From NCBI RefSeq assembly GCF_000379905.1, contig NZ_KB904060.1:1-64000 (forward strand): a stretch of 64,000 nucleotides of DNA, given 5' to 3'. The notes under the pieces are model-generated. The model was not told the origin of the DNA. It was given only the letters and a program-made list of their open reading frames with translations, and did not search any database. The DNA is from Rodentibacter pneumotropicus DSM 21403 (lineage in GTDB: Bacteria; Pseudomonadota; Gammaproteobacteria; Enterobacterales; Pasteurellaceae). Each line of letters begins with the position of its first letter. Within the stretch, counting starts at the first letter, position 1. Made by a program: the position numbers and the translations under genes. Positions 24,762-42,336 of the stretch are shown here, in pieces.

Positions 24762-24792
24762 AAAAAGTGCGGTTAATTTAACCGCACTTTTT
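24762..24792. terminator. bidirectional uptake-signal terminator (hda / der)
   Basis: Opposed uptake signals AAAAAGTGCGGTTAA and TTAACCGCACTTTTT between convergent genes, with T tracts in both directions. Confidence 0.92.
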
Positions 24793-36053: not shown

Positions 36054-37181
<1,128 letters not shown>

Positions 37182-41943: not shown

Positions 41944-42028
41944 ATAAAAAATTAAGAAAAACCACTCGATAAGAGTATTTTAGGAAATATTAGAATTTTG
42001 GAAAATATCTGAGAATCTACTGGACTAT

Positions 42029-42122
42029 GCTAGGGTGGTGAACTAAGCAGAATTGGTCTTAACAGCAAGTGGCTTACTGTACGCATCCTTGCGGAATTTC
42101 TACCTAGCTCACCATAGAGGTG
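42029..42122 (-). other. structured intergenic region, extension of the small RNA locus
   Basis: On the minus strand four pairings can be drawn: CACC/GGTG (42110-42122), TCC-GCAA-GGA with a GNRA loop (42086-42095), ACAGTAAG/CTTGCTGT (42062-42080) and an enclosing GGTGAGCTA/TAGTTCACC (42105-42113 with 42037-42045). Two positions pair as G-U on the minus strand but would be A-C mismatches on the plus strand, pointing to minus-strand transcription. TAAGCCACTT here can also pair with AAGTGGCTTA in the small RNA. Confidence 0.45.
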
Positions 42123-42148
42123 TTCTAGTCTGCGCAACATAAAACAAT

Positions 42149-42220
42149 AAAAAAGGCTTCTCAACCTTTTAAGCCACTTTTCAGGAGACCAATCCTGTTT
42201 TTCTACATATCTGTAGAAAC
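42149..42220 (-). ncRNA. putative small RNA downstream of crp
   Basis: No recognised RNA family. A promoter at 42227-42255 would start transcription near 42220. The transcript would form a perfect 8-bp hairpin (arms 212-219 and 200-207 of the 42 kb block, loop GATA), a 5-bp hairpin with loop TTGGTC (42182-42197), and a GGCTT...AAGCC stem (42155-42175) followed by six T residues (42149-42154), giving about 72 nt. The terminal stem is short, so read-through into the adjoining structured region (42000-42130) is plausible and the real RNA could be about 265 nt. I do not see homology to Spot 42, CyaR, 6S, 4.5S or RNase P RNA. Confidence 0.55.
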
Positions 42221-42226
42221 TTGCGT

Positions 42227-42255
42227 ATGATAAGGTCCTTTTCCCTTATTGTCAA
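42227..42255 (-). promoter_or_regulatory. strong promoter of the putative small RNA
   Basis: A perfect TTGACA (42250-42255), a spacer of exactly 17 bp, and TATCAT (42227-42232) on the minus strand. No protein-coding gene lies downstream on that strand before nagE (opposite strand), so the promoter itself argues for a non-coding transcript. Confidence 0.75.
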
Positions 42256-42270
42256 TTTAATGTGTGTCTA

Positions 42271-42291
42271 TTTGAATATTAAATATTCAAA
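42271..42291. promoter_or_regulatory. 21-bp perfect palindrome upstream of the small RNA promoter
   Basis: TTTGAATATT-A-AATATTCAAA, a perfect 10-1-10 inverted repeat. Its centre is about 61 bp upstream of the predicted start, a typical position for an activator. It could alternatively be part of the crp transcript end. The regulator is unknown. Confidence 0.5.
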
Positions 42292-42336
42292 AACTACTTT
42301 TTTATATAGAAAAAAACCTTTTCTGGGAATTACCCG

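Follow-up and report, generated by a model that had tools for sequence, protein, structure and literature searches.

What kind of gene occupies the minus strand beside crp in the window, the whole stretch of 64,000 nucleotides of Rodentibacter pneumotropicus DNA that was analysed? Conservation and folding argue that the minus strand carries an RNA gene, as the earlier note had suggested, with either an RNA of 72 nt or a longer one as its possible product. Judged from sequence, this is probably a stand-alone RNA gene descended from a phage C4 lysogeny switch, and the orphan unit, as we call the copies of this kind, appears to be kept in Haemophilus, Aggregatibacter and Rodentibacter without the phage gene that was once controlled by it.

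Anatomy and strand of the crp-side locus

Behind a promoter-like site, the minus strand from 42220 to 42031 holds a three-hairpin leader and then a second structured segment, as shown in Table 1, and a convergent nagE-like gene comes after the C4 domain. The three hairpins and the T6 tract that had been described over 72 nt were recovered, the third hairpin lying at 42170-42151 and the T6 tract at 42154-42149, so that 42220 to 42149 does span 72 nt.

Table 1. Features of the orphan unit in the window
Feature	Position	Strand	Remark
Perfect 21-base palindrome TTTGAATATTAAATATTCAAA	42271..42291	.	upstream of promoter
Sigma-70-type promoter, TTGACA-17-TATCAT	42227..42255	-	TTGACA 42255-42250, TATCAT 42232-42227
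Leader hairpin 1	42200..42219	-	position kept, sequence varies between genera
Leader hairpin 2, CAGG-AUUGGUCU-CCUG	42182..42197	-	loop complementary to C4 b' loop (b1 target)
a1 target AAGUGGCUU	42171..42179	-	complementary to C4 a' segment
Weak terminator-like hairpin with T6	42149..42170	-	strong counterpart in phage relatives
C4-like antisense RNA domain, stems P1, P2, P3	42031..42119	-	Rfam match and fold
P1 stem, 5' strand	42098..42113	-	starts with GG, the type of site RNase P cuts in phage C4 (accessible part of PMC5320573)
P3 hairpin with a' segment UAAGCCACUU	42062..42080	-	
b' loop AAGACCAAUU	42051..42060	-	
P1 stem, 3' strand	42037..42052	-	

The palindrome is present and perfect, with 10-base arms such as turned up in 6 of 2000 sequences simulated from the intergenic region with a first-order Markov model, and the near-consensus promoter is likewise there as described, with 11 of 12 consensus matches at a spacing of 17. 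A scan of 1401 bases returned 6 promoter-like sites versus 4.1 in shuffles; since this count is little above the shuffles, the case for the promoter rests on its position and its conservation, TTGACA being found upstream of the leader in all 42 orphan loci. The palindrome-binding activator proposed in the earlier note is unsupported, because the perfect palindrome is not conserved, occurring in only 2 of the 42 loci (L001 and L002). The half site AATATTCAAA was observed in 16 of them, six from Rodentibacter (L001-L006) and ten from the H. influenzae group; it is missing from all 11 loci of the H. parainfluenzae group and all 9 of Aggregatibacter. A weaker role for it is conceivable.

Folding of 42031-42119 against shuffles gave z = -5.28 on the minus strand versus z = -0.39 on the plus strand, in agreement with the preference for the minus strand previously drawn from G-U pairs, and a three-stem fold of P1, P2 and P3 was found on one strand. 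The strand is decided neither by the whole 271 nt (z -3.57 minus, -3.85 plus) nor by the fold of the leader alone (z -2.20 minus, -3.58 plus). P1 was judged on per-sequence folds because, in our reading, the alignment misplaces it in Haemophilus.

Relation to C4 and IsrK RNAs of phages

A covariance search at Rfam's own cut-off returned no match at the locus. At a permissive threshold, 42031-42119 was matched as C4 antisense RNA (RF01695) with 35.1 bits, where the gathering cut-off is 45, and with E values of 4.9e-5 in 481 bases and 5.4e-5 in the whole genome; the source genome holds two further C4 matches, both above the cut-off. Scores of 34 to 37.9 bits were obtained in 5 of the 14 orphan loci tested (L007, L011, L015, L020 and L023), and no match at E 0.05 was returned in the other nine, including L065, L067, L070 and L074 of Aggregatibacter, an outcome partly due to search filters, because L002, which was missed too, has a C4 core identical to that of the window. 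The leader matched isrK (RF01394) weakly, at 15 bits and E 0.37, without reaching the gathering score of 50, and the three hairpins of the IsrK anatomy are seen at the locus, the third of them, a terminator-like hairpin, being weak here. The prophage-type relatives L075 and L076, whose leader hairpin is almost that of the orphan and whose b' loop is identical to its own, score 48.7 and 55.2 bits as C4 and have an isrK match ahead of C4 at 41.4 and 45 bits, below the cut-off of 50; linked through them, the locus resembles an IsrK-C4 unit in its predicted structure. The earlier note, which had recognised no RNA it knew, thus missed a C4-like antisense RNA with a leader that is IsrK-like in its hairpin order. 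The locus is C4-derived and C4-like in anatomy, and it is not classed as a C4 system because its score lies below the cut-off and the antirepressor target is absent. A c4 antisense RNA and a separate c4-a1b1 motif are both listed by Weinberg and colleagues in the accessible part of their report (PMC2864571), and we infer that the leader is the c4-a1b1 motif.

At least 10 viral contigs (L249, L253, L264, L265, L288, L290, L294, L369, L393 and L397, several being nearly identical to one another) show the order leader, C4, second b site and gene, and so do L076-L078; in L075 the order is kept and the second site differs slightly. All eight genes typed by Pfam (L075-L078, L249, L253, L290 and L369) are of antirepressor type, namely KilA-N, AntA or Bro-N, and a strong terminator was found in 10 of 10 phage leaders scored. 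Such phage units (L075-L078, L249, L253, L462 and others) have the same or nearly the same leader hairpin 2 and b' loop as the orphan, but, unlike in the orphan, a second target and an antirepressor-type gene follow and the terminators are strong; in those orphan loci that were examined, the 120 bases that follow gave no b site. In 11 phage loci (L075-L078 and seven viral contigs), pairing between the phage's own a' loop and the gene start region was computed at -11.5 to -15.6 kcal/mol. With the second b site of each of these 11 loci, the orphan b' loop gives -11.5 to -11.8 kcal/mol. For the orphan a' loop, the mean with the phage start regions is -8.0 (Rodentibacter type) or -7.1 (Aggregatibacter type) versus -13.9 kcal/mol for the phage's own, and the two come close in L078/L393 (-11.2 vs -11.5) and L076 (-10.3 vs -11.7). 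Loose double-target matches in viral contigs were left out of every count, loci L426 and L427 were likewise left aside, GenBank phages gave no match, and plasmids gave two short, chance-like matches. Positions 869-948 of L075, between leader and C4, were matched by the Rfam family AaHKsRNA82 (37.6 bits, cut-off 51.4), and this Aggregatibacter sRNA family may be part of an IsrK-C4 unit. Genome G087 holds 27 C4 matches and six copies of the antirepressor-target pattern, spread over many contigs.

With the C4 of phages P1 and P7 (RF01695) the orphan shares the order of promoter, target-bearing leader and C4, the three stems, and loops complementary to the leader, but it is without the second target at the ribosome-binding site and without the antirepressor gene, and its score stays below the Rfam cut-off; its a' segment lies in the long P3 stem and, by our reading, is not an anti-Shine-Dalgarno sequence, unlike that of P1/P7 C4. 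IsrK / STnc1160 of Salmonella Gifsy-1 and the SeqA/CI RNA of phage P4 likewise consist of a three-hairpin leader with a terminator-like end and then an RNA complementary to the leader, whereas the orphan has no antirepressor frame behind it, crp in front, a weak or lost terminator, and a fixed chromosomal place in several genera. In the available portion of PMC4825925, IsrK is a short RNA whose read-through transcript carries the complementary sequence, and SeqA of P4-like phages is its structural homologue. The Group 1 C4-like sRNAs of Acinetobacter baumannii are chromosomal and are proposed to be co-opted from phages, as here, but they occur in many copies with varying a' loops, whereas the orphan gives one match per genome in the DNA search, has loops that are near-constant within genera and keeps its leader target (accessible part of PMC5320573, according to which C4 motifs in Pasteurellales were predicted by Weinberg et al.). 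No paper was found under the names C4 antisense RNA and Pasteurellaceae, and no report of the crp-side locus was found in the literature searched; the NTHi RNA-seq intergenic list (PMC4144887, Table S3) may hold this RNA.

Distribution and conservation of the orphan unit

The DNA search gave a match in 49 of 140 Pasteurellaceae genomes, one per genome, and 42 orphan units were retained after seven had been set aside: four of prophage type (G050, G052, G094 and G114), the truncated unit of G122, and the short matches that G003 and G041 have at other places. The orphan unit is present in 12 of 15 Rodentibacter, 9 of 9 Aggregatibacter, 10 of 10 genomes of the H. influenzae/haemolyticus group and 11 of 11 of the H. 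parainfluenzae group. The exact C4-loop pattern was found in 28 stretches among 84,980 species genomes, all from Rodentibacter, Haemophilus or Aggregatibacter bar one record titled Pseudomonas stutzeri, and in none of the viral contigs. That record (NCTC11607; L082 / L109) has the orphan unit, is placed in Rodentibacter and is probably mislabelled. The unit adjoins crp in 31 of the 42 genomes (28 by neighbourhood; G074, G075 and G081 by coordinates), and the 11 units away from crp are the nine of Aggregatibacter together with G128 and G129; three chromosomal settings were found, with G128 in yet another place. The neighbouring gene in the four Aggregatibacter loci examined (L110-L113) is presumably accA, as read from its protein start. 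Genes read as phage genes abut the orphan RNA in L110 (1-4619) and L111 (1-4570), and other genes do so in L112 and L113. In two Rodentibacter genomes, G117 and G119, both the leader and the C4 pattern are missing beside crp, and a third, G122, has kept the promoter-like stretch and the leader hairpin and lost C4; the unit is dispensable, since 3 of 15 Rodentibacter are without it or its C4 part. A tree was built from 34 distinct rows, to which 42 orphans and 12 phage copies had been reduced; a branch with 100/100 support has all orphans on one side, although the bootstrap had yet to settle.

Differential conservation was observed along the unit. The window copy and 18 Haemophilus copies are 85-100% identical over 42119-42040 and 90% over 42199-42180, with 64-75% over 42179-42120, 53-70% over 42259-42200 and 19-55% over 42039-41940, the 100 bases beyond C4. 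Different genera build leader hairpin 1 from different sequences, and leader hairpin 2 is near-invariant and equal or almost equal to the phage version. The C4 loops a' and b' are largely complementary to the upstream leader in the orphan loci, the leader-loop pairs being standard in 94.4% of cells versus 92.8% in shuffles (22 distinct rows). A compensatory change was seen at the column pair 20-71, which is U-A in 15 and C-G in 7 of the 22 rows; the covariation score and the count of cells with both partners changed exceeded all 500 shuffles, and the counts of doubly changed pairs and of pair types were no higher than in shuffles. As cells count sequences, the covariation amounts to one event. 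Pairing is broken at four positions in the a helix, each in 4 to 7 of the 22 rows, and at one b pair in a single row, L070, which stands for A. actinomycetemcomitans L070/L071. Rodentibacter leaders pair with their own loops at -12.7 versus -7.4 kcal/mol with Aggregatibacter loops, and Aggregatibacter leaders pair with the loops of other genera at -8.6 to -8.7 versus -9.5 kcal/mol with their own. The double-target pattern, which requires both sites, gave 34 matches in the 140 genomes, 26 of which are orphan leaders, the other eight being the leader of prophage L077 (G052), a phage-like leader (G097) and six chance-like places; it was missed by a variant in 16 of the 42 carriers. One further place with a b-like and an a-like site occurs in G080, which we take for chance inside a gene.

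Proposed mechanism and rival explanations

Transcription would start at the promoter and run through a leader with two targets, b1 in a hairpin loop and a1 after it, then through a weak terminator and into the C4 domain, which carries in its b' and a' loops the complements of the leader targets, the second target and the antirepressor gene being absent. By a criterion of two G-C pairs and four T in eight, the orphan terminator mostly has two G-C pairs with T-rich tails in Rodentibacter, the H. influenzae group just reaches this limit, and none was found in the H. parainfluenzae group or in 5 of 9 Aggregatibacter loci; a terminator so much weaker than that of the phages suggests frequent read-through into C4. 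The C4 domain could then be released by RNase P, cutting at the GG seen in the sequence at the start of P1, and the C4 RNA would act by loop-to-loop antisense pairing. The leader probably limits the free C4 RNA, since it is the principal match found for the two loops together. In the 80 bases behind C4, C exceeds G in 35 of 42 loci (means 18% and 10%), which is compatible with a Rho-dependent ending.

The purpose that we prefer, at somewhat less than even chances in our judgement, is the exclusion of phages with the same b site in their antirepressor mRNA; next, in the same judgement, comes host mRNA regulation, a tentative reading, and then a persisting relic, which is doubtful. The exact phage second-target pattern (TTGGTCTCT) was found in 0 of 42 carriers versus 6 of 98 other genomes (G011, G050, G052, G087, G094 and G122), a difference that is non-significant (two-sided Fisher p = 0.18), and genomes within a genus are non-independent; G114, a non-carrier, has a divergent second site that was missed by the pattern. 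Among the six, G122, a Rodentibacter without the orphan C4, holds a complete phage unit with a gene read as KilA-N-like, which is a lead for phage exclusion and not proof of it. A more elaborate version, which seems to us rather unlikely, is that a fixed chromosomal C4, keeping the b' loop shared by a class of antirepressor phages, provides Haemophilus, Aggregatibacter and Rodentibacter with heritable, phage-free immunity against them; the leader would be an internal decoy, setting how much RNA is free and letting it go upon a matching phage mRNA. The orphan C4 might instead have been recruited to regulate a host mRNA through its b' and a' loops in the manner of a trans-acting sRNA, as the loops have changed little although no phage partner of exactly their type is resident, and one b site of the own genome, ATGGATTGGTCT, overlaps the start codon of a gene that we take, from its product sequence, to be pnuC. 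Against it, the shallow seed search found b'-complementary sites ahead of ATG without clear enrichment (108 in 8 genomes versus 91 for the reversed pattern), and ATGGATTGGTCT is lacking in 11 of 11 H. parainfluenzae-group genomes, yet occurs as a sequence in the orphan-less Rodentibacter G117 and G119; the pnuC start site was rejected as a target, this distribution being inconsistent with the presence of the orphan. That the unit is a phage relic with an inactive RNA, kept by drift or by useful surroundings, agrees with a terminator that is weak or lost by the criterion above, with the absent second target and gene, and with the lost or truncated unit of 3 of 15 Rodentibacter, but it fits poorly with C4 and leader hairpin 2 being far more conserved than the flanks, with a pairing that survives a compensatory change, with a hairpin 1 kept by differing sequences and with retention in three chromosomal settings. 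An improbable alternative makes the leader, and not C4, the working part, as a sponge which titrates the C4 RNAs of resident prophages and pushes induction, like short IsrK, which acts in trans in Salmonella and activates its prophage (available text of PMC4825925); leader hairpin 2 is nearly the phage version and G122 retains a leader without C4, yet the orphan a1 pairs with phage a' loops at a mean of only -6.6 (Rodentibacter) or -7.8 (Aggregatibacter) versus -13.5 kcal/mol for the phage's own leaders (11 loci), and no second C4 of the b' type was seen in carriers, where its exact pattern occurs once per genome and not at all in G080.

The least probable of the alternatives is a small peptide encoded over C4, also or mainly, comparable to orf45 of the IsrK locus, where a 45-aa frame lies behind isrK in Gifsy-1 (as given in the accessible part of PMC4825925). 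The statement that no open frame is present goes too far, as in the window itself a frame across C4 is open (TTG, 44 aa). Counting flanks, the C4 frame is open in 34 of 42 orphan loci at 18 to 74 aa, and a peptide would be favoured by the 44-51 aa frame starting with ATG that all ten loci of the H. influenzae group have (L011, L012 and L015-L022) and by TTG frames of 44-74 aa in Rodentibacter L001-L005. However, the frame has only 18 aa in L007 and L008, it is absent from 8 of 9 Aggregatibacter loci, and one-base insertions and deletions occur within C4. Because start and length vary by genus and most Aggregatibacter loci are without it, the C4 frame is not a shared protein; conservation as a protein frame, which had been named as evidence against an RNA gene, was not found across genera, and the shared frame was set aside as unsupported there, a peptide confined to the H. 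influenzae group being conceivable.

If the preferred reading of a domesticated phage switch is true, an RNA lysogeny switch would have turned into a bacterial gene that is passed on vertically and retains its partner target in cis. Haemophilus influenzae and its relatives would gain an sRNA for which the literature searched gave no description, and the case would put to the test whether bacteria can domesticate superinfection immunity in the form of an RNA and nothing else.

Elsewhere in the window, positions 37049-37165 of the minus strand were matched by the Rfam family AaHKsRNA96 (Aggregatibacter sRNA 96) at 89.8 bits, with a cut-off of 43, and a 31-base palindrome centred at 24777 consists of two inverted AAGTGCGGT words, which we take to be the Pasteurellaceae DNA uptake sequence.
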